This document shows, piece after piece, positions 9,034 through 32,954 of a stretch of DNA of 64,000 bases. The stretch lies in assembly GCF_013409065.1 (NCBI RefSeq), contig NZ_JACBZP010000001.1, forward strand, positions 3,420,518 to 3,484,517. The letters are read 5' to 3'. The notes beneath the pieces were generated by a model. That model did not search any database. It was not told where the DNA came from and saw only the letters and a list, made by a program, of their open reading frames with translations. Origin of the DNA: Spelaeicoccus albus (GTDB lineage: Bacteria; Actinomycetota; Actinomycetes; Actinomycetales; Brevibacteriaceae). The translations under genes and the position numbers were made by a program. The stretch's first letter is position 1; each line of letters starts with the position of its first letter.

Positions 9034-10037
9034 TGCCGCAATATCCGATCGCTGAAGAAGCACGCACTTCGCCGACCGGGTGCCACTTCTTCGAGCGGAG
9101 GGGCACTGATTCGACATTCGGGCTGCGCAAATTCGCAGCGCGGGGCGAACGAGCAGCCCGCCGGAAGCCGATTGAGTTCGGGCGGTTGCCCGGGGATCGC
9201 CGGCAATCGCTTGCCTTTGAGATCCTCGCTGGAAACCGATGAGGCAAGCCCTCGGCTGTACGGATGGGCCGGGTTCGTCAACAGGTCGCGCGTCGGCCCG
9301 CGTTCAACGATCCTGCCGGCGTACATGACGGCTGTCTCATCGGTGACTTCACTGACCACGCTGATGTCATGCGTAATGAGAACCAAGCCCATGTCGCGTT
9401 CGTCCTGCTGTTCTTTGAGCAGTTCGAGAATCTGAGCCTGTACCGTGACATCGAGCGCCGTCGTCGGTTCGTCGGCAATCAGCACTTTCGGGTCCAATGC
9501 CAATGCCATCGCTATGACGATGCGTTGCCGCATTCCCCCGGAAAACTGGTGGGGGTAGTCGTGCACTCGGCCGGCGGCGCCGGGGATGCGCACTCGGTCC
9601 ATCATCTCGATGGCGGCCAGTCGGGATGCCCGACGAGACATTCCACGGTGGACGCGGTACAGCTCGCCAATTTGATTGCCGACCGTGTGCACCGGATTGA
9701 GCGCGGTCAACGCGTCTTGGAACACCATGCTGATTTCGCTGCCGATGACGCGTTGGCGCTGCTTTTCCGGTAGCCCGACGAGATTCATCTCATCCAGCAG
9801 GATCTCGCCGGATGTGACGTGTGCCGGCGGCGTGTCGAGCAGTCCCATGATTGCCGAGGCCGTCACCGACTTACCCGATCCGCTTTCACCGAGAATGCCC
9901 AAGGCTTGGCCCTGCCGGACGTCCAACTCGACGTCGTTGACGGCTCGTACTCGTCCGGCCGGTGTCTCGAATTCGACCACGAGGTCGCGCACGGACAGGA
10001 TCGGCTCGGCCGGTTGCGGAATCGGTTCGGCCGTCAT
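9030..10037 (-). CDS. Opp/Dpp-type ABC transporter ATPase (D subunit)
   Basis: A 335-residue ATP-binding subunit. Walker A is GESGSGKSV, the signature [16 protein letters not shown] and Walker [12 protein letters not shown]; a C-terminal Cys cluster [14 protein letters not shown] is present. It pairs with the following ATPase to form the usual asymmetric nucleotide-binding dimer. ATG 10037 overlaps the permease stop by 4 bases and has GGGAG four bases upstream. Confidence 0.92.
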
Positions 10038-10936
10038 GATGCTCCCTTGGGGTCGAATTCATCGCGCAACGCTTCGCCGAACAGTACGAAGGCAAGCACC
10101 GTCACGCTCAAGAAGATGGCGGGGAATATCAGCAGATGTGGTGATTCGGACACGTATTGTCGCGCCGCTGCGAGTTGGAGACCCCAGGAGACCGACGGCG
10201 GAGACAATCCGACGCCGATGAATGTCAGCCCGGCTTCCGCAGCGATGACACCGCCGACGCCGAGCGTTTGCAACACGAGCAGCGGCGTCAGCGAGTTTGG
10301 CACCAGGTGGCTGAAAATCAACCGGAAGTCGCTGCCGCCCAGCACACGCGATGCTTGCACGTATTCGCGGTTCCTGACCGTCATGACCGACGATCGCATA
10401 TATCGCACGCCGCCGGGCCAGTGGAAGAGCGCGAGCGCGAAGGACACCGTCCAGATCGTGCGATGGTCAAAGAGTTGAAGCACCACGATTGCGGCGAGAA
10501 TGAACGGCAGCCCGAATGCGATATCGCACACGCGCGATATCAGCGCATCAACCCAGCGACCGTAGAATCCTGCCAAGGCGCCCAGGATCGCAGAGACGAC
10601 AAACGAGGCCGACGTGACGACGATGCCGACGACGATCGAGGCGCGAGCACCGTAGATGACGTTCGTATAGTAGTCGCAGCCTTGCGGGTCGTAGCCGAAC
10701 CAATGCGAAGCGCTCGGCGGTTTGTTGGTGTTCAAGATGTTGCAGCCCGCGTTGGGGTCGCTGCCGAATCCCGCAAAGAGCTGCGGAAATGCCGCCATGA
10801 CGATCATGATGAGGACGAGTGCGCCGGAGATCACGAACCGGGGTCGCTGCGCGAGACTTCGAATTCGATGCCACGTGTTGGGCTCGTCCGCTATGTCCTC
10901 GACGGGGCCGGACAGCACCTGCCGATCGACGCTCAT
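10034..10936 (-). CDS. Opp/Dpp-type ABC transporter permease (C subunit)
   Basis: A 300-residue inner-membrane permease. It has an N-terminal transmembrane helix (FVISGALVLIMIVMAAFPQLF), a periplasmic-type loop containing Cys and SASHWFGYDPQG as in OppC/DppC, then five further helices and the EAA-type loop ASRVLGGSDFRLIFSHLVPNS. ATG 10936 overlaps the stop of the other permease by 4 bases. It forms the translocation path with the B subunit. Confidence 0.92.
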   Translation of the reverse strand: MSVDRQVLSGPVEDIADEPNTWHRIRSLAQRPRFVISGALVLIMIVMAAFPQLFAGFGSDPNAGCNILNTNKPPSASHWFGYDPQGCDYYTNVIYGARASIVVGIVVTSASFVVSAILGALAGFYGRWVDALISRVCDIAFGLPFILAAIVVLQLFDHRTIWTVSFALALFHWPGGVRYMRSSVMTVRNREYVQASRVLGGSDFRLIFSHLVPNSLTPLLVLQTLGVGGVIAAEAGLTFIGVGLSPPSVSWGLQLAAARQYVSESPHLLIFPAIFLSVTVLAFVLFGEALRDEFDPKGAS

Positions 10937-11856
10937 ACCCGCACCCTCGGATCGATCAAGCCGTATGTGAGGTCAACGAGCAAATTGAAGACCAGGTAGA
11001 CGATGACCAGCAGCGTAGCGATGCCGACGACCACTGTGCCCTCCTTGTTGTGAATTGCCTGCACCATGAGCTGGCCGATGCCGGGAATGTTGAAAATGGC
11101 TTCGATGATGACGGCGCCCCCGAGCATTCCGGCCAGGCTCAAGCCCAGATACGTCACGACCGGGATCATGGCGTTGCGCAAGGCGTGTTTCCAGATGCTT
11201 CGCGACGGCGACAAGCCTTTGGCCCGAGCCGTGCGCATGTAATCCGTCCGCAAGACGTCCACCAGGCTTGTGCGAGTGAGTCGCGCCAGACTTGCTGAGG
11301 CTTCAAAGGCCATCACCAGCGCCGGGAGGATATATGCCATCGGCCATCCGGCGCCGATGCCCGCGGGGTCGACCCAGTTGAGCTGGACGCCGAAGAGTGT
11401 TTGGGCTCCCAGCGCGATGACGAATCCGGGAACGCCCAAAAACACGACGGTGAAGATCAACGCGAAATGGTCTCCGGCACGGTTGTGTTTCAATCCGCCG
11501 TACACGCCGATCGCCAGGCCGATGATCAGTTTGAGCACCCACGCCGTCAACGCGAGCTTGAAAGTATTGGGCCATCGCTCGGCAATCAGACCGCTGACCG
11601 GCCGACCAAAGAAATCGATACCGAGATTGCCGTGGACGAGGTTCCACATATAGTGCCCGTACTGCGCCAGAAACGGGTCATTGAGGTGGTAGGCCTCGCG
11701 GATTTGCGTCACCGTTGAGGCAGGAAGCGGACGTGAGCCGGTCAACGCTGCCACGGGATCACCGGGCATGGCGAAGGTCAGAGCGTAAATGATGAATGTC
11801 GCGCCAATAACCACGGGCACCATTTGCAGTACTCGCCGGAGCGTATACCCAAGCAT
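10933..11856 (-). CDS. Opp/Dpp-type ABC transporter permease (B subunit)
   Basis: A 307-residue permease with about six transmembrane helices. It starts MLGYTLRRVLQMVPVVIGAT, typical of OppB/DppB, and contains the conserved FAMPGDPV and the EAA loop RTARAKGLSPSRSIWKHALRN. ATG 11856 follows GGGGGA at eight bases. The gene lies 17 bases after the ROK regulator stop, in one run with the binding protein and the downstream C, D and F subunits. Confidence 0.92.
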   Translation of the reverse strand: MLGYTLRRVLQMVPVVIGATFIIYALTFAMPGDPVAALTGSRPLPASTVTQIREAYHLNDPFLAQYGHYMWNLVHGNLGIDFFGRPVSGLIAERWPNTFKLALTAWVLKLIIGLAIGVYGGLKHNRAGDHFALIFTVVFLGVPGFVIALGAQTLFGVQLNWVDPAGIGAGWPMAYILPALVMAFEASASLARLTRTSLVDVLRTDYMRTARAKGLSPSRSIWKHALRNAMIPVVTYLGLSLAGMLGGAVIIEAIFNIPGIGQLMVQAIHNKEGTVVVGIATLLVIVYLVFNLLVDLTYGLIDPRVRV

Positions 11857-11873
11857 CGTTTGTGTCCCCCTTC

Positions 11874-13103
11874 CTACCGAGCACCCGGTGCGTCATCGAC
11901 GGTGCTGAGGTGGCCGACCGGATCGTCGAGCGCTGCAGCGACGATGGTGGTGGCGGCGAATAGCGTCAGCGACATCTCGTTCGACAGCGAGGTGACGATT
12001 CGAGCGGACGCATTGCTTGCGGAGTCTGCATACAGATCCGCCTCGGCTCGCACCATGTCGAGATATTGCGGCGTTTCGGCCACGGTGCCGGCAATGACCA
12101 GATACTCCGGATCGATGATGTCCATCAAGATGGCCGCAGCACGTCCGACATATCGACTGCGACGACCAAGCACATCGGCCGCCACCGGGTCGCCGTCCGC
12201 CGCCCTAGTCACGATGTCGGCGAATTCCGGGACTTCGGCCAGGCCGGCTTCGGCTGCCATCCGTTCAACAGCGTCGTCCGTCGCCACTGCTTTCAGGCAG
12301 CCGGATCTGCCGCAATCGCAAGGGATTGCCCGTTCGGTGACTTTCAAGTGCGCGATGTTCCCGGCGCTTTGTCGATAGCCCGCCCGAATGATGCCGTCGT
12401 GAACGCTGACGGAGCCGACGTCCGCCGTCACCACCATCAGGACGAAGCTGCTGGCGGTCTTTCCGTATCCGTAGAGGAGTTCCGATTGAGCCGCCGCGCG
12501 AGCGTTCTGTTCGACAATGATCGGCTCCGGGACTCGGCCGCTGAGTTGTCCTCGTACGTCGACGTCGCGCCAGCCGGCGACCGGATTCTCCACGATAGTT
12601 CCGGCTCGGCGATCGACAATGCCGCCGCTGGCTATGCCCGTACCGACTATCGAGACGCCGGCGGGGCAGTCCGCCACGAGGTCACGGGCCGCCCCGGCAA
12701 CCATTTCCAGCGCCTCCGGGGCCGGCACCCCGGCATGCGGCACCAACACGGACACGTGCTCGGTGCCGTCGAAGCCGACAATTGCCACGCCGGTCGTCCG
12801 CGGACCCAGATGGATGCCGAGGACGGCGCGACGGCGCCCGTCAATGGCCAGCGGCACCCCGGGCCTGCCGAGGACGCCGGTCTTGGGCTCCAATTCCCGG
12901 ACGAGACCGAACTCGATCAACTCGTTGACCAAGTTCGTGCCGGTGGCGGCGGACAGCCCCAGCGCCCTGGCTGTTTCCGAACGTGTCTCGCCCGGGCTCA
13001 GCATGATTCGCCGAAGAACCATTGACATGTTGGTGCGGCGCATATCATTGCTGCGCTGCCCTCGGGCGGGCTTTCGCAAACCGGAATCGGAATAGGTTGT
13101 CAT
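11874..13103 (-). CDS. ROK-family transcriptional regulator
   Basis: A 409-residue ROK (repressor/ORF/kinase) protein. The N-terminal ~70 residues form a winged helix-turn-helix (SETARALGLSAATGTNLVNELIEFGLV). The rest is the sugar-kinase-like domain with VLGIHLGPRTTGVAIV, a histidine in GNIAHLKV and the zinc motif CDCGRSGCLK, where the consensus ends in Glu instead of Lys. ROK regulators usually sense sugars or glycosides. Its place inside the transporter operon, between binding protein and permeases, suggests it controls this operon and that the cargo is a carbohydrate; both are inference. Confidence 0.9.
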   Translation of the reverse strand: MTTYSDSGLRKPARGQRSNDMRRTNMSMVLRRIMLSPGETRSETARALGLSAATGTNLVNELIEFGLVRELEPKTGVLGRPGVPLAIDGRRRAVLGIHLGPRTTGVAIVGFDGTEHVSVLVPHAGVPAPEALEMVAGAARDLVADCPAGVSIVGTGIASGGIVDRRAGTIVENPVAGWRDVDVRGQLSGRVPEPIIVEQNARAAAQSELLYGYGKTASSFVLMVVTADVGSVSVHDGIIRAGYRQSAGNIAHLKVTERAIPCDCGRSGCLKAVATDDAVERMAAEAGLAEVPEFADIVTRAADGDPVAADVLGRRSRYVGRAAAILMDIIDPEYLVIAGTVAETPQYLDMVRAEADLYADSASNASARIVTSLSNEMSLTLFAATTIVAAALDDPVGHLSTVDDAPGAR

Positions 13104-13121
13104 CGAGAGAATCCGTTACCG

Positions 13122-14714
13122 TCAGCAGCCGTAGCCTGCACGATAAAACTGCAGGTCACCTTGCACGTCGTTCATCACGGCACACTTGGAGTGCAGACCG
13201 TAGTCTTTCGGCACGAACAACGGAATGGCCGGCATGTCCTGCAGAATCAGGTGTTCGGCTTTGGCGAACTTCGCATTGCGCTTCTTCACGTTCAGCTCGC
13301 CGCGTGCCGAACGGATCAGTTTGTCGACGGCCGGATTGCTGTATCCCGTCGCCGCATTGCCGTCTCCATTGGTTTCGTACTGGCTCAAATACTGGTCCGG
13401 GCTCTTGAACGACCAGCCCCACAGTCCAAACAATGCGCCGTCGAGCTTGCCGTTGTTGCGCTTCGACTGCAGCTCGGTGCCCAGCATCGGCTTGAGCTGG
13501 ACCTTGATGCCCAGATTGGATTTTATTTGCTTGGACACGGCTTGAACGAGTTCCTTGTCCGAGTCGCTGTTGTAATCGATATTGAGCGTGCCGGAGAATC
13601 CCCCGGACTTCTTCAGGAGCTTTTTGGCTTTGGTCGGGTTGTAGGTGCAGGCTTCGCACGAACCTTTTCGGTAGGACCCCAGCGACGGGGGCACAAGCGA
13701 GTCCGACGGCGCCGAATTGCCCTGGAGGAGTGACTTCGCAATGCTCTTTCGATCGATCGACATTGCTATGGCGTGCCGGAGCTCCGGACTGCGAAGTTTC
13801 TTCAGATACTCGGGGAACTGAAGTGTGTTCTGCTTACTTTCGGTCTTCACCTTGTACAGCGCGTCGGAACCCAGCTGTGATTTGGCCTTTGCCACCATCG
13901 CAGGTTGGATGTTGCGCATCATGTCCAGATTGTTCGCCGTCATGTCCGTGTAGGCCGCATCCGGCGAGGTGTAGATCTTCGCCACCAAGGTCGTGGCGCC
14001 GCCCGAGAAGCCGGCGCTTCCCTTGAAGCCGTCCCACTTCTTCATCGTGACCGACTGGTTGTGATCCCACGAGACGACCTTGTACGGGCCATTGCTGATC
14101 GGCTTCGACTCGTACGATTTCGGGTCGGTGAACGCGACCTTCGGGAGCGGGCACGTGGGATTCGTCGACAAGATCTTCGGGAAGTCCGAATTCGGCTCGG
14201 ACAAGGTGACTGTGATCGTGTATTTACCGGAGGTCTGCACTCCCGAGAGCTTCTTGACCTTCGGCTTGGAGCCGTCGGGAGGGTTCATGGCGTCGTACCC
14301 CTTGAAGCTCGCGAACATGCCGTTGCCCTGCCAGGCGTTCGGGCCGTATGCGGCTTTGTTCCACGCTTGTACAAACGACGATGCCGTGACCGGGGATCCG
14401 TCTTGGAAGGTCCATCCATGGCGGAGTTTGATCGTCCACGACTTGGCGTCGGTGCTCTTCACCGATTTCGCGGCCAAGGGCTCGTACTTTTGGGTCTTGG
14501 TATTCATCTCCATCAAGTTCGCGCAGGTCGCCATGGCAATCTGGCTTCCCGGATCCTTTTGCGGCAATAGCGACTTCGGTTCAGTTGTTTCGAACGTCAA
14601 GGTGCCGTCGCCGCCATCGGATCCTGCTTGGCCTCCTCCGTCGCTGCAGGCAGCTGCTCCCAACAGCAGTGATGCGGCCGCCGCAGCGGCGAGGACTGCT
14701 CGATTCTTGAACAT
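13122..14714 (-). CDS. Solute-binding lipoprotein of the ABC importer (SBP_bac_5)
   Basis: A 530-residue extracellular solute-binding lipoprotein of family 5, the class that serves Opp/Dpp importers. The lipobox is LLLGAAAC at the end of a 20-odd-residue signal peptide, so the mature protein is lipid-anchored at the Cys. The family region AMSIDRKSIAKSLLQG and the usual ~500-residue length are seen. ATG 14714 is chosen because AAAGGA precedes it and the signal peptide starts there (MFKNRAVLAAAAA); an upstream in-frame start would add 23 residues ahead of the signal peptide. It is the first gene of the operon. Confidence 0.92.
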   Translation of the reverse strand: MFKNRAVLAAAAAASLLLGAAACSDGGGQAGSDGGDGTLTFETTEPKSLLPQKDPGSQIAMATCANLMEMNTKTQKYEPLAAKSVKSTDAKSWTIKLRHGWTFQDGSPVTASSFVQAWNKAAYGPNAWQGNGMFASFKGYDAMNPPDGSKPKVKKLSGVQTSGKYTITVTLSEPNSDFPKILSTNPTCPLPKVAFTDPKSYESKPISNGPYKVVSWDHNQSVTMKKWDGFKGSAGFSGGATTLVAKIYTSPDAAYTDMTANNLDMMRNIQPAMVAKAKSQLGSDALYKVKTESKQNTLQFPEYLKKLRSPELRHAIAMSIDRKSIAKSLLQGNSAPSDSLVPPSLGSYRKGSCEACTYNPTKAKKLLKKSGGFSGTLNIDYNSDSDKELVQAVSKQIKSNLGIKVQLKPMLGTELQSKRNNGKLDGALFGLWGWSFKSPDQYLSQYETNGDGNAATGYSNPAVDKLIRSARGELNVKKRNAKFAKAEHLILQDMPAIPLFVPKDYGLHSKCAVMNDVQGDLQFYRAGYGC

Positions 14715-14781
14715 TGCGTTCCTTTCGCAAAGGTCTCCATTGATCTGCGCCGCGCCGATGAGGATGCGAGTGGCGCGTTTC

Positions 14782-14810
14782 ACTTATTTAATTCATCACA
14801 TATAATAAGT
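14782..14810. promoter_or_regulatory. AT-rich inverted repeat and -10 in the transporter/oxidoreductase divergent region
   Basis: ACTTATT (14782-14788) and AATAAGT (14804-14810) form a 7-base inverted repeat with a 15-base spacer, in an AT-rich island of a GC-rich sequence. A perfect TATAAT (14801-14806) could be the -10 of the rightward oxidoreductase gene. The position between divergent promoters suits an operator, perhaps for the ROK protein. The -35 elements are not clear. Confidence 0.4.
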
Positions 14811-17396: not shown

Positions 17397-18548
17397 TCAA
17401 AGCCCGCGCATCGTGAACGCGCGTGCCATCGCCGTCCGCACCGGTGTGGCCAGCGCGGCCCGGAGCGCGAAATCCCGCATTGCCAACTGGCCGCCGGACA
17501 GTTGCCGGCCTAACGCCATGTTCAGGCGAGCTTGGCGATCGGCCACCCGTGCCGAGTGCATCCGGCGCCGCGAAAACCGTGCCAAGAGTCGCCGCGTGCG
17601 GTCCGGGTCGTCGTCGCGGGCTCGCCCGCGCCGGATGATCGACGCAAGAACCGGCGCGAGGTCGCAAGCGTCCAACCAGCCCAAATTCATGCCTTGTCCG
17701 CCGATCGGGCTGATCTCGTGGGCGGCATCCCCGATCGCGATGATGCGGCCGAACACCATTCCGGTCGCCAGTCGGCTGCGGGCGCGGAACGCGCTCAATA
17801 CGGCGACGGTTGCCGGATCAACGCTTGTTCCGGTCCGGGCACGGATCAGTTCGCTCAATTCCCCCGGCTCGGCGCGGTCGAACAATCCGGGCGTCCGCAC
17901 CACCCACCGGCGTTGCCGGCCCGGCAGCGGGAACGATTCGACGACGCCATCGGGCTCCACGTGGATGACCGCCCGCGGTCCGTCCCGCGTGGTATCGGCA
18001 AAGTCCCCCATCAGATAGGTGTCGGTGAGGTCGACGGTCCGCAGGCCGAGGCCGGACGCCGCACGTACGGTGCTCTTGGCCCCGTCGGCGGCGACGGCGA
18101 ACTGCGCACGGACAACGACACCCCCGGGCCCGCCGATTTCCACGTGATCGTCGGCCGCGGCCACCGTGCGCACCGGGAACCCGCGCGTCAACGCGCCAGG
18201 CGCTGCAGTCCTCAGCGTCCGGCCGAGCACGTCCTCGGTCACGTACTGCGGAACCGTGAGCACATACGGGAAGACGGCCGAGGCCTTTTCGAAGGTCACG
18301 GCTCCGACGTCGCGCCCGCGGCTGCGCAGGATGCCGCGGCGCACCCGCACTCCCCCGCGAATCAACTCGCCGGCGATCCCGAGACGCGACAGCGCCGCAA
18401 GCGACGGCGGGTGGATACCGATGGCCCGCGAGTGCACGGTCCGACTCGTGCGGGCCTCCAGGACCGTGATGTCGAGTCCCAGAGAGGCGAGCTGACAGCC
18501 GAGCAGCATTCCGACGGGGCCGGCACCGATGACTGCCACGTCATACAT
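17397..18548 (-). CDS. FAD-dependent monooxygenase of a type III polyketide cassette
   Basis: A 383-residue class A flavoprotein hydroxylase. It has the dinucleotide motif IGAGPVGMLLG at residues 7-17, the DG-type motif VAADGAKSTVRAASGLG and the GD motif IAIGDAAHEISPIGGQGMN. Enzymes of this class hydroxylate aromatic rings with NAD(P)H and O2. It overlaps the methyltransferase gene by 8 bases and is the last gene after a type III polyketide synthase. Oxidation of a resorcinol/phenol product towards a hydroquinone or quinone is the likely role, as for the hydroxylase of the Streptomyces srs phenolic-lipid operon (inference by gene content). Confidence 0.88.
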   Translation of the reverse strand: MYDVAVIGAGPVGMLLGCQLASLGLDITVLEARTSRTVHSRAIGIHPPSLAALSRLGIAGELIRGGVRVRRGILRSRGRDVGAVTFEKASAVFPYVLTVPQYVTEDVLGRTLRTAAPGALTRGFPVRTVAAADDHVEIGGPGGVVVRAQFAVAADGAKSTVRAASGLGLRTVDLTDTYLMGDFADTTRDGPRAVIHVEPDGVVESFPLPGRQRRWVVRTPGLFDRAEPGELSELIRARTGTSVDPATVAVLSAFRARSRLATGMVFGRIIAIGDAAHEISPIGGQGMNLGWLDACDLAPVLASIIRRGRARDDDPDRTRRLLARFSRRRMHSARVADRQARLNMALGRQLSGGQLAMRDFALRAALATPVRTAMARAFTMRGL

Positions 18549-19260
18549 GCGCGCCGCCTTGATCGAAGACGAGCAGATTGCGTGCCGGAAACTGTGTCAT
18601 CAGCCGCCAGCCCGGCGGGACGACGGCGCGGAGCTCTGCTGTCGTGTAGCTGCGCCGGATCGAGATCAGGCCGTCCGCGCGGATATACGACCCGCGAAAG
18701 AACGGCAACGTGGCGGCGCCAAAGGCCAGATACGCCGGCAGCGAGCGCGCGATGTCGCTGTGGACGGCGCGAATCCGGGTCAGCGCGCGGGAATCGGCGA
18801 TCAGCCCGTCGAACTCGTCGCCGGAGAGATGGTGGAGCAGATGGTTCGAAACCACGAAGTCGAACGACAGGCCTTCGGCGACCAGGTCCGCCGTGACCGC
18901 ACACCGGAATTCAACGCCGGACGTCGGCGGCAACCGGCTGACGAATCGGTGAGCCCGCTCGTCCGGGTCGATGGCGGTGATGCGAAGCCGGCTCCCGTCA
19001 CGGGCCGACCAGCGCGCCAATGCCCGGGGCAGATCCCCGCCGCCGAAGCCGATATCGAGAACCGTCGGATTCAGCCCCCGTACGACCGCGGGCCGCAGGA
19101 GCGTGCGGTACAGCTGGTGCCAGCCGGCCACTACCGCGTTGACCGCCCGGAATCCGGCATACGTGCGGTCGAGGCGAACCGGATCGCAGTTGGGCGAATC
19201 CATGAATTCGACTGCCTGGGTGTCCCGTTCGGCGAGGTTCACGGCGACGGCCTCAAGCAC
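18541..19260 (-). CDS. Class I SAM-dependent methyltransferase of the polyketide cassette
   Basis: A 239-residue methyltransferase. Motif I is VLDIGFGGGDLP, followed by ITAIDPDERA (acidic residue after strand 2) and FDFVVSNHLLHHL (motif IV). GTG 19260 overlaps the synthase stop by 8 bases, and the gene overlaps the monooxygenase start by 8 bases, so the three are translated together. It may O- or C-methylate the aromatic polyketide. To my knowledge some phenolic-lipid operons use an unrelated integral-membrane methyltransferase at this step, so the soluble class I enzyme here is a difference worth noting. Confidence 0.87.
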   Translation of the reverse strand: MLEAVAVNLAERDTQAVEFMDSPNCDPVRLDRTYAGFRAVNAVVAGWHQLYRTLLRPAVVRGLNPTVLDIGFGGGDLPRALARWSARDGSRLRITAIDPDERAHRFVSRLPPTSGVEFRCAVTADLVAEGLSFDFVVSNHLLHHLSGDEFDGLIADSRALTRIRAVHSDIARSLPAYLAFGAATLPFFRGSYIRADGLISIRRSYTTAELRAVVPPGWRLMTQFPARNLLVFDQGGAHV

Positions 19261-20383
19261 CCGGCTCTTTGGTCAGCAGAGCGCTTTCGACGGTCAGCCC
19301 GGGACCGAATGCCATTGCGCACACGCGTTCCGGTGCGGACGCGGGTTGCCGGAGGATGTGCGCCAGGATGTACAGCACCGTCGCGCTGCTCATGTTCCCG
19401 TAGTCACGCAATACCTGCCGCGACGGCGCAAGCTGGTCGGCGCTGAGGTTCAACGTCGATTCGACCTTGTCCAGGATGCTGCGCCCGCCCGGATGGATCG
19501 CCCAGCGGTCGACGTCGCTGTACGGACGCGATGCCAGCACGGAATCGGAGGCGAAGAGCGGCGCCATGGCGGCCGCAATGTTCTCGTCGATGATATGGGG
19601 CACGTACGTGCTGAGCACCATGTCGAAGCCGTGGTCGCCGATCGTCCACGCCATGTCGTCCTCACCGGTCGGCGTCAAAACGGTTTCGAAGTGGTCCAGG
19701 CTCAATGCCGGCTGCCGGGTCGATGGCCGCCGTCCGCTGACGACCGCGGCGGCCGCGCCGTCCGAAAAGACCGACGACGCCACTATCTGGTCCGGGTCGT
19801 TCGACGTGCGCACGTGCAATGTGCACAATTCGGCGCTGACGACCAGGACGACCGCTTCGGGCTCGGCCGCGCAAATCGTGGCGGCGGCCCGCAGGGCGGG
19901 GAACGACGCATAGCATCCCATGAAGCCGATGTGGTAGCGCTGCACGGAGGGTGTGAGGCCCAGCCGGCGGACGAGCAAATAATCCGGCCCCGGCGCAAAG
20001 AATCCGGTGCACGACACGGTAATGACGTGCGTGACGTCGGACGCCGCGAATCCGCCACTCGCTTTCAGGGCCAGTTCGGCGGCTTCGCAGTACAGGCCGG
20101 GCGCGGCCCGGATGTACAGATCGTTGCGAACCTGCGTACCCGGGTTCAGCAATTCACCGGATTCGCGGTCGTAGAAGACCGGGGGCTCCTTCGTGTCCTC
20201 GGCGGAGAGCTCCGCGATGACCGTGTGGCGGGTGTCGATGCCCGATGCATTGAAGCACGCACCGATCAGCCGTTCGCCGAGACGCGAGATGTCGGGCTGA
20301 GCGGCGAATCGATCCCGCGTGACCTCCTGGTCGAGCACGGTGGAGGGCGTGGCCGTCTCGATTGCACTCACATACGCTGACAT
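19253..20383 (-). CDS. Type III polyketide synthase
   Basis: A 376-residue chalcone/stilbene-synthase-like enzyme that builds aromatic or pyrone rings from a CoA starter and malonyl-CoA. The thiolase-fold triad is visible: Cys in VSCTGFFAPGPDYLL, His in WAIHPGGRSIL and Asn in YGNMSSATVLYIL. GFMGCYASFPALRAA is also typical. Starter specificity is not readable, but bacterial enzymes with methyltransferase and flavin hydroxylase partners often make long-chain alkylresorcinols or alkylpyrones that enter membranes. First gene of a three-gene operon. Confidence 0.93.
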   Translation of the reverse strand: MSAYVSAIETATPSTVLDQEVTRDRFAAQPDISRLGERLIGACFNASGIDTRHTVIAELSAEDTKEPPVFYDRESGELLNPGTQVRNDLYIRAAPGLYCEAAELALKASGGFAASDVTHVITVSCTGFFAPGPDYLLVRRLGLTPSVQRYHIGFMGCYASFPALRAAATICAAEPEAVVLVVSAELCTLHVRTSNDPDQIVASSVFSDGAAAAVVSGRRPSTRQPALSLDHFETVLTPTGEDDMAWTIGDHGFDMVLSTYVPHIIDENIAAAMAPLFASDSVLASRPYSDVDRWAIHPGGRSILDKVESTLNLSADQLAPSRQVLRDYGNMSSATVLYILAHILRQPASAPERVCAMAFGPGLTVESALLTKEPGA

Positions 20384-26889: not shown

Positions 26890-27921
26890 CTAGAAATTCT
26901 CCCGAATGAATTCCTCCACTGTCCCTTTTCGATCGTGCGCGTCCGCTCGGCCGAAAGCTTCGACGGCCTTATCCAGGTTGTCGAGTGACTCGGCACGGCG
27001 TCCGGCTCTGAATAACGCACGGCCGTAGAGATAGAACGCCTCGGCGGCATTTTGCGAGGCGATGCTGGCCGAGAGCTCGCAAACGGGCTCAAGCACGCCG
27101 ATCGCCTCTTCGTATTCGCCGGCAAGATAATTCCAATGCGCTCGAGTCACGGCGAGCAAAAGATGGTCCTCAGTGCTGCCGCCGACGATTTCGGCAGACA
27201 TTTCAGCACGTTCAATGCAGCGCAGAGTTGCCGCGTCGGCGATACCGGCCGCGAGGCGCATCGCCGCCGAGCCCTTGTTGAACTTGCCCCACAACTCGAG
27301 GTCCTTGCTCGGAGAAAAAAGCAGGAATGCCCGTTCATGATATTCGAGCCCGTTCTCGATGTCGTCGCGCAAAAACGCCACGTTGCCGATAGCCCAATAG
27401 GCTTTGGCCGCCAATTGATCGTCCGGCAACTCGGGGTCCATATCGCGAATCAGAGACTCGCAGGCGAACCATGCCGCGTCGAGATCGCCGCGCTCGGCGT
27501 TGACGGCAATTGCCGTGCATTGGCACTTGACCCAAAGAACCGGATCCTCCTCCGACCCGCACGCAAGTTGCACCGCACGCTTAACCGCATTATTGGCCTC
27601 GCGGAGCCGGCCAAGTCCTTGCAAAACGATTGCCTCGAGGTTCAAGGCCCGTCCCTCGCGGCCAGGGTCTTGCCGCGCCAGCTTTCCAGTAACGAGTTCT
27701 TGAATAATTTCAAGGGCCTCAGGCAATTCTCCGTCGGCACAGAGGCAGTCAGCCTGAAGGAACCTCATTTCCCACCAAGATTCGCTATCGTTGCTCTTCG
27801 CCGCGTAATCAGCAGCAGTGACAGCTTCCCTCGCGGCTGCGGCGTAATCGTGATCCCACTGGGATTGCCGAGCCCTGAGCTCGGCCAAGAGGTACGTACT
27901 TGACGTCGTAGACGGCGGCAT
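26890..27921 (-). CDS. TPR-repeat cytoplasmic protein
   Basis: A 343-residue all-helical protein built of TPR-like hairpins across its length, for example ADGELPEALEIIQEL, GDLDAAWFACESLI, DDIENGLEYHERAF, GEYEEAIGVLEPV and AGRRAESLDNLDKAVEAF. No signal peptide, membrane segment or clear helix-turn-helix is visible. Length and architecture resemble the peptide-receptor domains of Rap-type regulators but also many unrelated TPR proteins. It is divergent from a small exported-peptide gene across 152 AT-rich bases, which invites a receptor/peptide hypothesis. GC content looks lower than in the flanking core genes. Confidence 0.8.
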   Translation of the reverse strand: MPPSTTSSTYLLAELRARQSQWDHDYAAAAREAVTAADYAAKSNDSESWWEMRFLQADCLCADGELPEALEIIQELVTGKLARQDPGREGRALNLEAIVLQGLGRLREANNAVKRAVQLACGSEEDPVLWVKCQCTAIAVNAERGDLDAAWFACESLIRDMDPELPDDQLAAKAYWAIGNVAFLRDDIENGLEYHERAFLLFSPSKDLELWGKFNKGSAAMRLAAGIADAATLRCIERAEMSAEIVGGSTEDHLLLAVTRAHWNYLAGEYEEAIGVLEPVCELSASIASQNAAEAFYLYGRALFRAGRRAESLDNLDKAVEAFGRADAHDRKGTVEEFIRENF

Positions 27922-27927
27922 CCCTCT

Positions 27928-27958
27928 ATTATCCCTTATTAACTGATAAATGCATCAA
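27928..27958 (-). promoter_or_regulatory. Possible promoter of the TPR gene
   Basis: On the minus strand TTGATG (27958-27953) and GATAAT (27933-27928) are spaced by 19 bases. The -10 ends six bases before the ATG at 27921, so the transcript could be leaderless or nearly so, as is common in actinobacteria. Confidence 0.35.
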
Positions 27959-28073
27959 TTAGCGATACTCGAAAAGATTGAAAAACGAAGTAGCGCTAAC
28001 TCTCAAGTTTTCGCGATATACTCAGTCTGCTCCACGAGCTTTTGCCCGCGCACACATTGAATAGAGGTCCATC

Positions 28074-28238
28074 ATGAAAAAATTCGCCGCTTCGCTCTTA
28101 CTGGCCGGCGCACTCTCGCTTGCTGCTGTCGGTGTGGGGTCCGCGGTCAGCGCGACCAGCCCTGACTCGACTCAAGGCAGCATCGCAATCGGATGGTGGC
28201 CAACCACCAGCGCCGTCGGACAAGGAATCGGCCTCTAA
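28074..28238 (+). CDS. Small exported peptide, 54 residues
   Basis: A short gene with strong coding signs: AGAGG six bases before ATG 28074, an upstream TATACT -10-like box (28017-28022), and a textbook signal peptide (MKKF, hydrophobic core LLLAGALSLAAVGVG, cleavage after VSA at residue 27). The mature peptide would be 27 residues, starting TSPD, with a central IGWWPTT and a Gly-rich C-terminus ending GIGL. It has one basic stretch only in the signal and no Cys. It is divergent from the TPR gene and convergent with the tetR gene, with a hairpin after its stop. Candidate pheromone, bacteriocin-like or envelope peptide; function unknown. Confidence 0.72.
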   Translation: MKKFAASLLLAGALSLAAVGVGSAVSATSPDSTQGSIAIGWWPTTSAVGQGIGL

Positions 28239-28256
28239 ACCAGCAACAGCGACGCG

Positions 28257-28323
28257 TGCCCGCCGGGCTTGCGGCAGGATTTCTCAGATTTTCTGCCGCG
28301 GATCCGGCGGGCATACGTGTTTT
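28257..28323 (+). terminator. Nested hairpin after the peptide gene
   Basis: Outer arms TGCCCGCCGG (28257-28266) and CCGGCGGGCA (28304-28313) enclose a second pair, GCGGCA and TGCCGC. TGTTTT follows at 28319-28323. It probably ends the peptide transcript and separates it from the convergent tetR gene. Confidence 0.6.
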
Positions 28324-28340
28324 GTCGGACTGTGAAGTAA

Positions 28341-28946
28341 TCACTTTTTAGTCACCAGTGGTAAGAACACTTCATCGATAATGGACACCGCCACCTCGTC
28401 GGGTACCTCTTTGAGCGTCATCATCAGCTCCTGCCGATAAAGGTCGAACGGTACCGCGATCACTCGCGGGGTGAGCTTCGCGGGGTCCGCCTCTCCGCGC
28501 TGGATGGCGCGGTCAAGAACTCCCTCCATGGCACTGGTGCGCTCCGAGAGAAAAGCGCTGCGCAGCTCGGCGATCCCCGTACCCGTCTCGGCGTAATGGC
28601 CCCCCAACTGTTGCATCAGCTGGAGCCCGATCCGTGACCGTGAGCGGTTCGCTTGGCGAAGCAGCTCGATCATGTCGCCTCGCAACGTTCCCGTGTCCGG
28701 CACGGCAGTCTTCTGCTGGGCCCCCGCCCGCGCAGCGGCCGCGAGGAGTAATTCAGCTTTGCCGGGCCACCGACGATAGACGACGGCGCGGCTCGTTCTG
28801 GCACGGTCGGCCACCGACTCAATAGTGAAGTGGTCGTACCCCTTTTCGATGAGTTCTTCCCATGCGGCGTCCAGCAGCGCAGCCTCCAGCGCGGCGCCGC
28901 GGCGACGTTTCGGTGTGTGATCCCGAGAATCATCAATAAGAGACAT
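28341..28946 (-). CDS. TetR-family repressor
   Basis: A 201-residue TetR regulator. The N-terminal DNA-binding domain shows YDHFTIESVADRARTSRAVVYRRWPGKAELL; the rest is the helical ligand/dimer domain. ATG 28946 has GAGGAG ten bases upstream; an earlier in-frame start would fall inside that ribosome site. It is divergent from an MFS exporter, and two identical-pattern palindromes lie in the shared region, one over its own start codon. Autorepression and control of the exporter are expected. Confidence 0.92.
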   Translation of the reverse strand: MSLIDDSRDHTPKRRRGAALEAALLDAAWEELIEKGYDHFTIESVADRARTSRAVVYRRWPGKAELLLAAAARAGAQQKTAVPDTGTLRGDMIELLRQANRSRSRIGLQLMQQLGGHYAETGTGIAELRSAFLSERTSAMEGVLDRAIQRGEADPAKLTPRVIAVPFDLYRQELMMTLKEVPDEVAVSIIDEVFLPLVTKK

Positions 28947-28955
28947 TGTGTTTCT
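28939..28955. promoter_or_regulatory. TetR operator candidate 1
   Basis: AGAGACATTGTGTTTCT fits the palindrome AGA-N-ACA-N3-TGT-N-TCT. It covers the tetR start codon (28946-28944). Confidence 0.7.
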
Positions 28956-29004: not shown

Positions 29005-30417
29005 ATGTCCAATACGAAGACCGAATCAGCCAAAGTCGACCCCGCGGTATGGCGTGCGGTATGGACAGTGCTCGTCGGCGGGTTGGCGGTGCTATTCGAC
29101 ACGACAATCGTCGCCGTTGGGCTGCACACGCTTGCCGGCGACTTGCACACGTCCGTCGCCACAATCCAGTGGGTCACGACCGCCTATCTCCTAGCTCTCG
29201 GCATCACCATTCCGATTACCGGCTGGGCACAACGAGTATTGGGCAGCAAGCGGCTATGGATCACGGCACTCACCCTGTTCCTGATCGGTTCGGTACTCTC
29301 CAGCCTAGCGTGGAGCGCCGGCAGCCTGATTGCATTTCGCGTCGTCCAAGGAGTCGGCGGCGGCGTGATGCTGCCGCTCACGGCTGCCCTCGTCGTCCAA
29401 GCCGCAGGCGGAAAGAACCTCGGCAAGATCATGTCCGTCGTAAGCCTGCCCGCGGTGCTCGGGCCGATCCTCGGCCCCGTCGTCGGCGGACTCATCCTGC
29501 AGCATCTGCATTGGTCGTGGATGTTCTGGGTGAACGTGCCGTTCTGCGTAGCGGGGATCGTGCTCGCCGCGCTCATGCTACCGAAGGATGGTCCGATCCG
29601 CCGGATGCCGCTCGACGTCCTCGGCTTCGTGCTCATGTCTGCCGGGTTGGTCGGAGTGTTGTGGGGCATTTCAAACTCCAGCAGGACCGGTGGTTTCAGC
29701 AGGACCGATGTCGCCACGCCACTCATTGCCGGCCTTGTACTACTCATCGCCTTCGCGGCGTGGGCGCTACGACGGAAAGCAAGCGCGCTAGTGGACGTGC
29801 GGCTGCTGAAGCACTGGCCGCTCGCATCGTCGTCGATCCTGCTGTTCCTGTCCGGTATTACCTTGTACGGCGCGATGCTCTTGTTGCCCTTGTACTTTCA
29901 GGAGTTGCGCGGGACGACGGTGCTGATAGCCGGCCTGCTACTCATCCCGCAGGGCCTTGGCACGCTGGCAAGTCGGTCAATTGCGGGCAAGTTATCCGAC
30001 GCCATGGGCGCACGCTGGTTGGTCGTGGCCGGATTTCTCATCGCGCTGCTGGGCACGCTGCCGTTCGCCTATGCTAACGCGCACACCAATGAGTGGTGGC
30101 TCATGGCGGCGCTGTTCATACGCGGCATAGGCCTCGGTGTCGTGACGATTCCGCTGATGGCGCTTGGTTTCCGCGGAATGGAACGCGCCGACGTACCCGA
30201 CGCGAGCATCATCACCCGAATCGCCACGCAGGTAGGTGGTTCGTTCGGCGCCGCCGTCCTCGTGGTGATCCTTGCCGGCGCGGCCGTCGGCGCATCCTCG
30301 ACAGCTTCCCTGACGGACGCGTTCCAGCAGGCGTTTTGGTGGGCCACCGGGTTCGCCGGCGCCGGGGTGTTGATCTCGTTGGTCCTACCTGGACGGCTTC
30401 CGGAACAGGATGAGTGA
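29005..30417 (+). CDS. MFS multidrug exporter (DHA2/EmrB-QacA type)
   Basis: A 470-residue proton-coupled drug exporter. Around 14 hydrophobic helices are seen. Family marks include the DTTIVAVGLHTLAGDLHTS segment in helix 1, WVTTAYLLALGITIPITGW, and the antiporter motif C-like GVGGGVMLPLTAALVVQAAG to VLGPILGPVVGGLI. ATG 29005 follows AAGGAG at six bases. Divergent from its likely repressor. The drug is unknown. Confidence 0.92.
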   Translation: MSNTKTESAKVDPAVWRAVWTVLVGGLAVLFDTTIVAVGLHTLAGDLHTSVATIQWVTTAYLLALGITIPITGWAQRVLGSKRLWITALTLFLIGSVLSSLAWSAGSLIAFRVVQGVGGGVMLPLTAALVVQAAGGKNLGKIMSVVSLPAVLGPILGPVVGGLILQHLHWSWMFWVNVPFCVAGIVLAALMLPKDGPIRRMPLDVLGFVLMSAGLVGVLWGISNSSRTGGFSRTDVATPLIAGLVLLIAFAAWALRRKASALVDVRLLKHWPLASSSILLFLSGITLYGAMLLLPLYFQELRGTTVLIAGLLLIPQGLGTLASRSIAGKLSDAMGARWLVVAGFLIALLGTLPFAYANAHTNEWWLMAALFIRGIGLGVVTIPLMALGFRGMERADVPDASIITRIATQVGGSFGAAVLVVILAGAAVGASSTASLTDAFQQAFWWATGFAGAGVLISLVLPGRLPEQDE

Positions 30418-30508
30418 TGATGACGCCGCGGGAGATTTCCACTTCTTGTCACCCCTGGCCGATATCCTTTCATCGATAGGAGAACAGGAATCGAGGTCGG
30501 AGATCGCA

Positions 30509-31501
30509 ATGGTTGAATCGTTCAAGATGGACAGGACGAAAGCGAGCCTCGGCAAGGCAGTCGACGGTATCGGCATGTTCGCGCGGAGCACCTCAGCGCA
30601 GTTGCTCGGGCAGGCCGGCGGTCTCAAGGACGCTGCCACGGACACCGTTGAGAAACTCACCGCGAAGAAGCCTGACCCCTACGATGCGGCTATAACCAAG
30701 TACAACGGCGCGTTCACCGCGATGAATGACAGGGGCCTCTCACTCCTGGGTCAGCGCGAGCGATCGGCGGACTTGATCGAGCTCGTTGAGCTGCTGGTGA
30801 ATAGCATTGCTAACACCCCGAAGTCGTTCGAGACCGTCTTCGACGAGATTGACGTCCACAAAGCCCAATTCCTGGAGGCGGAGGAGTTCGCCCGGAAGGA
30901 CCTTGAGGCTGCGCGAAAGTCGGCTGCTGGAGCCGGAACCGGGTTCACCGCGGGCGCAGCGATCGCGAGCATGGCTCCGACAGCGGCGATGTGGGCCGCC
31001 ACCACATTCGGTAGTGCATCGACCGGCGCCGCGATCTCCACCCTCTCCGGGGCTGCGGCAACCAATGCCGCTCTGGCCTGGCTCGGAGGAGGGGCTATCG
31101 CAGCTGGAGGCGGGGGGACTGCTGCGGGCACCGCACTGCTCGCCCTCGCCGGCCCCATTGGTTGGACGGTTGCTGGAGCTACGCTCCTCGCGTCGATTGC
31201 ACTGTTCGCCAAGAAGAAGTTCGAGAACCGCGAGGCGAAGCAGAAGGCACTGACCGCAGTGAGGCAGAACGCCGCGCTCGTCGAAGGCATGGACGCCCAG
31301 ATCGCCGATCTCCTCCAGCGCAGCGCCTTCCTACGCGAGCTGCTCATAAAGAGCTATGGCGAAGCACTGGAATTATTTGGCGCCGACTTCGCCGCGCTGA
31401 CTACGCCGCAACAGTCCCGGCTCGCCGCATTGGTAAACAACACGAAGGCCTGCGCCGTACTGTTGAGCAAGCGGATCAAGCAGGACACCGATAATGAGTG
31501 A
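30509..31501 (+). CDS. Unrecognised helical protein with Gly/Ala-rich hydrophobic core, first gene of a cassette
   Basis: A 330-residue protein I cannot assign. It has an amphipathic/coiled N-terminal part (to about residue 145), a long Gly/Ala/Thr-rich hydrophobic region (about 145-235, including GPIGWTVAGATLLASIALFA) and a charged C-terminal helical part starting KKKFENREAKQKAL. No signal peptide or catalytic motif is seen. The layout would suit a protein that inserts a hydrophobic hairpin into a membrane. ATG 30509 has GGAG six bases upstream; an ATG at 30410 overlapping the exporter stop is an alternative. It overlaps the next gene by 8 bases, so the two work together. Confidence 0.75.
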   Translation: MVESFKMDRTKASLGKAVDGIGMFARSTSAQLLGQAGGLKDAATDTVEKLTAKKPDPYDAAITKYNGAFTAMNDRGLSLLGQRERSADLIELVELLVNSIANTPKSFETVFDEIDVHKAQFLEAEEFARKDLEAARKSAAGAGTGFTAGAAIASMAPTAAMWAATTFGSASTGAAISTLSGAAATNAALAWLGGGAIAAGGGGTAAGTALLALAGPIGWTVAGATLLASIALFAKKKFENREAKQKALTAVRQNAALVEGMDAQIADLLQRSAFLRELLIKSYGEALELFGADFAALTTPQQSRLAALVNNTKACAVLLSKRIKQDTDNE

Positions 31502-32954
31502 TGCAGCAAAACTCATGAAGAGCAACCAGGAGCAGGCTGTTGCTTCTTGGGTGGGCTATCTTAACCAGCTCCGGCTGGACAATCTGCTGAGTTCTCTCAG
31601 CCGACTGGACGTAAACCTCCAGGATGCGCTTACCAGCATCGACGAGGCGATCAGGAAGATCGATCTCGAAGTAGTCGCTGCCAATCGCGGCGGTGTGAAG
31701 GGCATGCACGGCTTTATCGCCGAGGTCGCCGAGGTGGGCGTCGGCAATGCTCGGAGCCAAATTTTAGCGGAGGGCACCGTCTACCAGTGGGTGAACGATA
31801 ACGGCCCCGTGGATCTGATGCGCAGCGGTATGGAGATTCAGCAGAAGTTTGTCGCGGCTGGCGGTCGCTTCGGTCTCGGCGCGATCGCAGAGCACTTATC
31901 GAAATACCCCGAGTTCGTTAAGAACGGCGGAAAATACCAGATCCCCGGCAACCACTTCGCGGTAATCCAGCATTTGCACGCCATGCCACCGGAGGAGGCG
32001 AGTAAATCCCTGACGCGTAGTGGCGACGGACCGTCGCTCAAAGACTGGGAGCGAATCCATTCCTTCTTCCACGATGGCTCTGTCAGCATTGAATCGCTCG
32101 AACCTTCGAAATTGGATTACCACGAAGTGCAAAGAGGCGCGTACAGCTCAACATTAAAGGCAGAAAAGAAGTCCCTTCATTCCACCGACCAAGCCCTACG
32201 AGACAACGCCTATAAGAAGAGCCAGCCATCGCTTCAGGAGGGCGCAAAGGCCACGCTGGCGTCCACCGCGGTCGAAGGCGGAGCCGCTTTCGTTCTGGCC
32301 GTGGCAAAAAAGCGCCGTGAGGGCAAGAAGCTCACGATGTTCACGAGCGAAGACTGGATCGACATAGCGGACGACACCGGCTTCGGATTTTTCGAAGGCG
32401 GTGTCCGAAGCCTCAGCGTTTACTCGCTCACGAACTTCACCGCTACGTCCGCAGCCGTCGCCAGCTCGATCGTCACCGCTGCCGTCGGCGTCGCGGAGCA
32501 GGCAAACAAGCTTCGCCGCGGCGAGATCGACGAGCTAGAGTTCATCGAAACCGCAGAGCTTGTCTCCCTGGAAGCCGCCGTAAGTGCGCTGTCCTCCTTC
32601 GTCGGACAGGCACTCTTCCCAGTGCCCCTACTCGGAGCCGTGATCGGCAACACCGTCGGCACCATCATGTACAAGACCGTCTCATCTTCCCTCTCCGAGC
32701 GGGAGGCGAGGCTGATCGAGCGCTACCGTAGCGAGCAGCGCGCGCTCGACGAACATCTCGCCACCGAGCACCAGGAGCTCATCGAGAAGCTCGATGTAAG
32801 CATGTCTGACTACCTCGCGGTGCTCGAACGGGCCTTCTCGCCCGACGTGGAGGCTACCCTCCTCGGATCGGTTGACCTCGCACTGGCCCTCGGCGTGGCC
32901 TCGGAAGACGTCCTGGATTCCGACGAGAAGGTCTTCGCGTACTTTCTCGAGTAG
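31494..32954 (+). CDS. Unrecognised protein, second gene of the cassette
   Basis: A 486-residue protein of no family I can name. The N-terminal ~60 residues are helical; then comes a distinctive block (KGMHGFIAEVAEVGVGNARS, then GTVYQWVNDNGPVDLMRSG and KYPEFVKNGGKYQIPGNHF) that looks like a conserved domain. From about residue 245 there are hydrophobic, small-residue helices (ATLASTAVEGGAAFVLAVA, LTNFTATSAAVASSIVTAAVG, LFPVPLLGAVIGNTVGTIM), and the end is acidic and helical. No signal peptide. ATG 31494 overlaps the previous stop by 8 bases. A toxin, defence effector or envelope-stress role would be speculation. Confidence 0.78.
   Translation: MSDAAKLMKSNQEQAVASWVGYLNQLRLDNLLSSLSRLDVNLQDALTSIDEAIRKIDLEVVAANRGGVKGMHGFIAEVAEVGVGNARSQILAEGTVYQWVNDNGPVDLMRSGMEIQQKFVAAGGRFGLGAIAEHLSKYPEFVKNGGKYQIPGNHFAVIQHLHAMPPEEASKSLTRSGDGPSLKDWERIHSFFHDGSVSIESLEPSKLDYHEVQRGAYSSTLKAEKKSLHSTDQALRDNAYKKSQPSLQEGAKATLASTAVEGGAAFVLAVAKKRREGKKLTMFTSEDWIDIADDTGFGFFEGGVRSLSVYSLTNFTATSAAVASSIVTAAVGVAEQANKLRRGEIDELEFIETAELVSLEAAVSALSSFVGQALFPVPLLGAVIGNTVGTIMYKTVSSSLSEREARLIERYRSEQRALDEHLATEHQELIEKLDVSMSDYLAVLERAFSPDVEATLLGSVDLALALGVASEDVLDSDEKVFAYFLE

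Follow-up and report, generated by a model that had tools for sequence, protein, structure and literature searches.

The receptor-propeptide locus

The window analysed here is a stretch of 64,000 nucleotides from the actinobacterium Spelaeicoccus albus (contig NZ_JACBZP010000001.1, positions 3,420,518 to 3,484,517). It carries two divergent genes separated by 152 bp. The gene on the minus strand (26890-27921) encodes a protein of 343 residues composed of tetratricopeptide repeats (TPR), the proposed peptide receptor. The gene on the plus strand (28074-28238, 54 codons and the stop) encodes a small propeptide, the proposed pheromone precursor. A preliminary description had reported this all-TPR protein divergent from a 54-residue peptide gene, and both open reading frames (ORF) were recovered as described. 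The pair very probably works as a peptide-pheromone system in which the TPR protein is the intracellular receptor. This reading is built on computed results for the gene pair, its co-conservation, the core motif, the protein-level constraint, the predicted fold and an association with neighbouring genes, and from sequence comparison the signalling role appears well supported.

TPR-type repeats are the sole Pfam content of the window receptor (TPR_12, E 1.1e-11), RNPP_C reaching just E 0.27. No helix-turn-helix (HTH) family was found by the Pfam scan of the 343-residue ORF. The stop-to-stop frame measures merely 354 residues, which leaves no space for an overlooked N-terminal domain in this frame and rules out a hidden HTH upstream. 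The earlier statement that the TPR protein carries no visible DNA-binding domain is upheld. A GATAAT hexamer (27928-27933, minus strand), read as a possible -10 box, lies 6 nt upstream of the receptor ATG and is also placed 6-7 nt ahead of the start in the relatives L003 and L038-L041. This shared position suggests that the receptor transcript is possibly leaderless and supports the start codon. The receptor is 43% identical to L003, a TPR protein of Arthrobacter ipis, and the alignment shows that it retains the positions conserved in its relatives.

The propeptide begins with a predicted signal peptide (residues 1-27, 28074-28154) that comprises a KK n-region, a hydrophobic stretch (best 12-residue hydropathy 2.43) and an A-x-A site, SAVSA|TS. 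Cleavage at this site would release a secreted part of 27 residues, TSPDSTQGSIAIGWWPTTSAVGQGIGL (28155-28235), which contains the conserved core IGWWP (residues 39-43, 28188-28202), the putative heart of the mature signal. The gene is preceded by a probable -10 box, TATACT (28017-28022), and by a ribosome site, AGAGGT (28063-28068), 5 nt ahead of the ATG. TATACT or TATAAT is similarly placed in several relatives, such as L003, L037 and L038. A strong hairpin (28256-28314) follows and is the probable terminator: positions 28239-28330 have a folding energy of -56.2 kcal/mol, whereas 200 shuffled versions give -32.3 ± 3.35 (z -7.1). The gene signals first described, namely the ribosome site, the -10 box, the signal-peptide-like start and the hairpin, were thus found again, but a simple promoter and terminator scan listed no site in 27880-28360, where there is no full promoter match and the hairpin fails the scan's T-run rule. 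A hidden Markov model (HMM) of 14 relatives' propeptides recovered the window propeptide among 757 window ORFs at E 3.4e-10, the next best being 0.024; the window row was removed from this model, but the remaining rows kept the alignment built with it.

Co-conservation of receptor and propeptide

A receptor-only search of 59 related genomes, the window's own included, yielded three true relatives in two other genomes. A fourth match, L005, was rejected as a LuxR-like regulator by its sequence. Each of the three relatives (L003 and L006, both from A. ipis, and L004) is accompanied by a small divergent ORF that opens with a signal-peptide-like segment. The peptide of L003 ends in YASVGWWPH, that of L006 holds three copies of IGNWPDPM, and that of L004 ends in VAGIGSWPNGGGGGNR. 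The receptors L004 and L006 have an N-terminal HTH; the window receptor and L003 have none.

A profile search across 396 genomes of the order found receptors at E <= 1e-20 in 30 of them. Four candidates were scored per genome, so that receptor counts may miss some. One genome group (f6) includes A. ipis and is taken to be Micrococcaceae; many of its genomes contain both an HTH-TPR and an HTH-less TPR receptor. Every one of the 17 intact HTH-less receptors, that of the window among them, has a divergent propeptide with a short [G/N/D]-x-W-P core; these receptors come from 16 of the 396 genomes. For two of the 17 (in G142 and G194) the match from the genome search contains a single stop codon, which falls either ahead of the frame used or at its end.

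The co-conservation script examined 137 dereplicated receptor rows for a divergent signal-peptide-like ORF. Among the 21 HTH-less rows, 17 have a WP core; one gene was counted twice (L020b = L042b), which leaves 16 distinct pairs, and L028 was added by its motif (VNWWPH). Three other rows stand outside the intact set: L050 and L053, fragments of split genes in which an HTH part is present as well, and the distant L233, which is without a WP peptide. The 116 HTH-TPR rows divide into 26 with WP (by a loose W..P rule), 42 ending in CC, 12 with another signal-peptide-like ORF and 36 with none. A WP- or CC-type divergent secreted ORF therefore accompanies 68 of these 116 rows across the order and the class. 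Four candidates per genome were also scored in the class-wide search, and 13 of the 107 matches listed were not taken into the examined set. Of 80 Arthrobacter-type HTH-TPR loci, 79 have an (I/V/T)GNWPDP propeptide. These loci are the best 80 of 279 relatives and are 84-100% identical to the query; being all this close, they are not 80 independent cases.

In a control of 471 long ORFs (those of the window and of the L054-L133 flanks minus receptors, together with those of L236-L251 with receptors), 74 have any divergent signal-peptide-like ORF, 14 have a strict [GNDS]xWP core and none has a CC end. All 14 strict cases are HTH-less receptors; the script's rules passed over the receptors of L245 and L248. 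Flanking genes of close orthologues are included in this control and do not count as independent cases. In an earlier control, any such ORF occurred in 38 of 319, a loose W..P in eight and a CC end in none.

The reverse search points in the same direction. An HMM of 15 HTH-less propeptides, run against the 396 genomes of the order, gave 18 matches at E < 1e-10 (15 of them rows of the model). All but one adjoin the 17 receptors, and the remaining match is an orphan. Weaker matches (E 1.5e-6 to 0.01) include six that adjoin HTH-TPR receptors; most of the others lie within much longer frames. The orphan, L301, belongs to A. ipis (G041:C15:51500-60500, about 4157-4300, plus strand), and its core YASVGWWPH is that of the pair in its own genome. 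No receptor was found within the 9 kb that surround it.

Peptide core and its evolution

Residues M1, K2, W42 and P43 are invariant in the 15 aligned HTH-less propeptides. W42-P43 are the only invariant core residues, the first W being replaced elsewhere by N, Y, I or D. Judging from this alignment, the signature of the peptides is W-P and not WW. XIP, the pheromone of the ComRS system, carries a WW motif, and the WW pair of the window peptide had initially been regarded as a ComS-like mark; the variable first W removes that support. ComRS (ComS/XIP) and the present pair have in common a short peptide with a Trp-containing core and a TPR receptor. They differ in that the window receptor is devoid of an HTH, the peptide has a predicted signal peptide, and W-P rather than WW is conserved.

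The two adjacent Trp codons could also belong to a tryptophan-sensing attenuator leader, which would explain a short ORF followed by a strong hairpin. The next plausible plus-strand gene, however, starts at 28948 and encodes a transporter of the major facilitator superfamily (MFS), located past a minus-strand TetR gene. The frame also opens with a signal-peptide-like start, and just W-P is conserved. The attenuator was rejected on these three counts, its probability being practically nil.

The propeptides of the HTH-TPR sisters (Arthrobacter and kin) contain one to four tandem copies of (I/V)GNWPDPM. In total, 231 GNWPDP units were counted in 88 of the 89 loci given, some of which are redundant, and they occur in 58 distinct DNA versions. 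The units were selected by their amino-acid motif, which builds in synonymous change, so the 58 versions alone are no test of selection. Near-identical octamers repeated with changing spacers indicate that the octamer is the functional unit. Known multi-copy pheromone precursors have the same tandem layout, and such propeptides are documented for Bacillota (PMC9765709; PMC11343458).

Constraint was estimated from pN/pS over whole genes, with pairs kept at pS 0.05-0.6. The values are 0.076/0.365 (4 pairs), 0.156/0.515 (2 pairs), 0.04/0.159 (1 pair) and 0.182/0.491 (1102 pairs from 79 related genes), and the ratios range from 0.21 to 0.37. The propeptides evolve under protein-level constraint, and conservation of the peptide frame at that level, on which the preliminary description had made its proposal depend, holds.

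The peptide might instead be a bacteriocin or another secreted effector that the TPR protein regulates or protects against. A small exported-type peptide with its own hairpin is consistent with this, as is export without a proven re-import. The tandem cores of 5-8 residues with free spacers in the relatives, however, are more in keeping with a trimmed signal than with a toxin, and the HTH-TPR sisters bear a PlcR-like DNA-binding domain. Moreover, the genes that adjoin the window pair encode a PF03601 membrane protein, a TetR regulator and an MFS transporter, and no peptide-modifying enzyme is among them. A bacteriocin is accordingly considered improbable.

Some loci depart from the usual peptide layout. 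In A. ipis, an ORF with four IGNWPDPM copies and no evident signal peptide was observed at L302 (G041:C12:294000-301500, about 3534-3725, minus strand). The HTH-TPR loci L044 and L050 have a divergent ORF without an evident signal peptide, ending in VGDWPD, and the receptor frame of L050 is split.

The intergenic regions between receptor and propeptide of the L006 type contain a conserved inverted repeat, TTGACA ... TGTCAA, around the Arthrobacter propeptide promoter. The exact pattern CTTGACA-N26-30-ATGTCAA was searched in eight Arthrobacter-group genomes. It lies beside the receptor in seven (not in G181), and one palindrome occurs elsewhere, in G385. A repeat beside the receptor and almost nowhere else points to probable self-regulation. 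A larger regulon of the HTH-TPR sister through this pattern is unsupported, the repeat being nearly confined to the receptor loci.

Receptor tree, fold and relation to known TPR systems

The receptor tree was built by a quick method from 52 chosen receptors with the HTH part removed. It includes 16 of the 17 HTH-less receptors, the near relative L041 being omitted. The HTH-less receptors, the window's among them, form one clade of 16 rows (SH-aLRT 97), within which the window receptor groups with L043 (core NWWPD) and L046 (core GWWPN) with a support of 88. The HTH state changes once on the tree. The CC or WP state also changes once, against a shuffled mean of 8.3 and a minimum of 4. The letter that precedes W-P follows the receptor tree as well, with 10 changes compared with a mean of 18.0 and a minimum of 14 in 500 shuffles.

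The AlphaFold2 model of the window receptor is an all-helical TPR superhelix (pLDDT 90.2, pTM 0.80). Its VIA Z scores are 27.0 for LGN, 21.9 for Rap with peptide (313 residues, 5.1 Å) and 21.7 for NprR. Rap phosphatases contact a response regulator through an N-terminal 3-helix bundle; residues 1-328 of the model align on Rap residues 42-369, and the Rap residues before 42 are uncovered. The model of the Arthrobacter HTH-TPR receptor has a pLDDT of 80.3 with a poorly modelled HTH part; its VIA Z scores are 26.8 for APPBP2, 23.9 for both MalT and Rap, 22.4 for NprR and 19.3 for AimR. The Foldseek and VIA lists are headed by eukaryotic or designed TPR proteins. With LGN ahead of Rap and NprR, the modelled fold is merely compatible with a peptide receptor; it would fit peptide binding, and descent from the RRNPP receptors is not thereby demonstrated.

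TPR proteins are often chaperones or adaptors, and the best fold matches are adaptor TPR domains. The protein could therefore be an intracellular chaperone or antitoxin for the propeptide or for a nascent protein, with no intercellular signal involved. Against this stand the signal-peptide-like start in almost every relative for which a propeptide was found (L044 and L050 being the exceptions) and the orphan copy, whose core is the same as that of its own genome's pair and which resembles an extra pheromone gene. The chaperone function is thus highly improbable.

The signalling reading can be compared with several known systems. Peptide quorum sensing with intracellular TPR receptors is described in Bacillota, and the screen of PMC10075063 covered Firmicutes and viruses. 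The same article gives an RRNPP signature of five points, which include a propeptide of 10-100 residues, Sec dependence and an adjacent TPR receptor of 250-500 residues. The window pair has a propeptide of 54 residues and a TPR receptor of 343 residues, and the two are direct neighbours. Most points of the published signature are thus present, and the system would work like an RRNPP system.

The RRNPP/RRNPPA systems of Bacillota (PlcR-PapR, NprR-NprX) likewise place a small propeptide, of Sec type by prediction in the window pair, beside a TPR receptor of 250-500 residues and have tandem pheromone copies, and the HTH-TPR receptors of the sister group have a PlcR-like HTH. The present systems differ in belonging to Actinomycetia, in the divergent gene order, in the [G/N/D]xWP or CC cores and in the missing sequence link between the TPR regions. 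The sole sequence link to RRNPP lies in the sister group, where the profile of the family hits PlcR through its HTH part (E 9.7e-11). None of the five receptors scanned reached an NCBIfam cut-off.

Rap-Phr offers a further analogy for the window receptor. Both would combine an HTH-less TPR receptor, expected to work by protein contact, with an adjacent exported-type propeptide, and one relative has an orphan peptide gene. Unlike in Rap-Phr, the neighbour in the relatives is a protein with GGDEF and EAL domains and not a response regulator. By this analogy, a Rap-like mode of action is plausible for the window receptor.

The NsdA family of Streptomyces likewise consists of TPR regulators from actinomycetes. 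Its model is matched by the distant HTH-TPR relative L143 with an E value of 1e-6 and a score of 28.6 bits, far under the 75-bit cut-off; the window receptor gave no match to this model.

Distribution in Actinomycetia

Receptors at E <= 1e-30 were found in 81 of 394 genomes of the class-wide sample. Examples of the ends of the divergent secreted-type ORFs are PDWPGMCC, SPVDMCC, NWPKCC and GPTWCC, and others have DISWP or DIGWP two or three times. The mixed forms (DWPGMCC), together with the receptor homology, suggest that the CC and WP peptides may share a common ancestry. The class-wide HTH-TPR loci L140-L163 and L176-L235 include many with divergent secreted-type ORFs that end in CC or bear DIxWP.

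A tblastn search with the Arthrobacter HTH-TPR receptor gave no match in 50,697 phage records (E <= 1e-6) or in 72,556 plasmid records (E <= 1e-10). Among viral contigs, 159 stretches fit a pattern and none codes for a relative. A phage- or plasmid-borne system of the arbitrium kind was rejected on these searches.

The signals of Actinobacteria are typically small molecules, according to PMC10075063. No description of such a peptide-TPR system in actinobacteria was found in the literature searched, whose coverage leaves out most subscription papers and all bioRxiv preprints. The strings GNWPDPM, NWPDPM and GWWPN were not found in the literature text, and the letters IGNWP appear in four unrelated papers.

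Proposed mechanism and output

Export, trimming, import, binding and output are the steps that we infer for the pheromone system. The 54-residue propeptide would be exported by the Sec pathway and cleaved after VSA. Extracellular proteases would then cut the 27-residue product down to a short signal built around IGWWP, and an Opp/Dpp transporter, for which the genome contains candidates, would re-import it. The genome encodes 15 family-5 solute-binding proteins of the oligopeptide type. A peptide ABC transporter of the Opp/Dpp type (binding protein, permeases and ATPase; Pfam was run on three of its ORFs) is located in the window at 9030-14783 on the minus strand, about 12 kb from the pair. 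With 15 such binding proteins, one of them in this gene group, peptide re-import is possible. Inside the cell, the signal would bind the groove of the TPR superhelix and alter the hold of the receptor on a partner protein. Without an HTH, the receptor would, like Rap, work through protein contact and not through DNA binding.

The neighbours of the relatives suggest a partner. Sixteen neighbourhoods of Micrococcaceae receptors (one of which, L251, is an HTH-TPR locus) were gene-called together with the surroundings of the window pair. A GGDEF-EAL relative (47-100% identity) is present by the receptor in all 15 HTH-less neighbourhoods, downstream on the same strand in 13 and past the propeptide gene in L249 and L250. 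Pfam was run on four of these 15 proteins: GGDEF and EAL are present in all, and HAMP is above the cut-off in one and weak in three. A DUF7793 protein accompanies 10 of the 15, located between the receptor and the GGDEF-EAL gene in six, just past the latter in one and elsewhere nearby in three. No GGDEF-EAL relative (E <= 1e-10) was found in 80 HTH-TPR neighbourhoods, which are close orthologues with flanks up to 4 kb. This difference, 15/15 against 0/80, indicates that the HTH-less receptor of Micrococcaceae probably controls the turnover of cyclic di-GMP (c-di-GMP). The likeliest partner in these relatives would be the neighbouring GGDEF-EAL protein, through which the signal would set the level of c-di-GMP. 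Such a link, if true, represents a route from a pheromone to c-di-GMP.

The broader proposal is rated somewhat better than even. Actinomycetia would own a large undescribed pheromone superfamily, in which an XRE-type HTH-TPR receptor is paired with a divergent secreted propeptide of the WP (xGxWP/DIxWP) or CC type. One branch would have lost the HTH once and been rewired to a diguanylate cyclase/phosphodiesterase, c-di-GMP then being set by a quorum peptide through direct protein contact. The window pair would belong to this branch and have another partner. If true, an actinobacterial counterpart this widespread, whose cores of 5-8 residues can be predicted, would allow cell-to-cell signalling in soil actinobacteria to be tested with synthetic peptides.

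Several results weigh against a functional signalling pair in the window or against the generality of the family. No GGDEF domain was found in the window genome by a search whose control was positive in 8 of 14 genomes, which makes a c-di-GMP output unlikely there; for the window's own organism this output was rejected. The GGDEF-EAL protein itself was also not found in this genome, in a single-protein search without a positive control. The genome has one receptor of the family in total, and with no GGDEF found the sole output suggested by the gene context is lacking, so that the pair may be a relic. In the window peptide 11 further residues come after the core and would need an extra cut; most HTH-less relatives have their last core at, or very near, the peptide end. 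Eukaryotic LGN TPR domains outrank Rap and NprR among the structural matches, and in the HTH-less clade taken by itself the link of the core letter to the tree is not significant (4 changes against a mean of 5.8 and a minimum of 4). The expectation that receptor and peptide would be conserved together stands for the 17 HTH-less receptors and only partly for the HTH-TPR relatives. There, the script found no WP or CC peptide in 48 of the 116 rows, some of them from Micrococcaceae (L024, L047-L049). Six of these 48 have a candidate by eye, divergent in L044, L050 and L193 and on the same strand in L035, L198 and L222. At least one CC row, L051, looks spurious, and L078 (Arthrobacter sp. SO5), the sole exception among the 80 Arthrobacter-type loci, has no propeptide that was found.

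These points bear on a further explanation, in which the family is real and the window copy is an inactive, decaying or output-less remnant from a Micrococcaceae-like donor. A receptor of the group at E <= 1e-20 occurs in just 2 of 60 genomes of the window's family, the other one being an HTH-TPR receptor; the failure to find a GGDEF partner and the extended C-terminus of the peptide also agree with decay. On the other hand, both frames are intact, the predicted signal peptide and the core are kept along with the ribosome site, the -10 boxes and the hairpin, and the receptor retains the conserved positions and models well. A remnant is thus regarded as unlikely, and an active pheromone pair is the preferred reading.

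Two other features of the window were observed. Two overlapping genes on the plus strand (30410-32951) match the PADLOC candidate defence system PDC-M09A/B (E 2.3e-152 and 2.2e-248). On the minus strand (17403-20383), a type III polyketide synthase gene lies beside the genes of a methyltransferase and an FAD-binding oxidoreductase.

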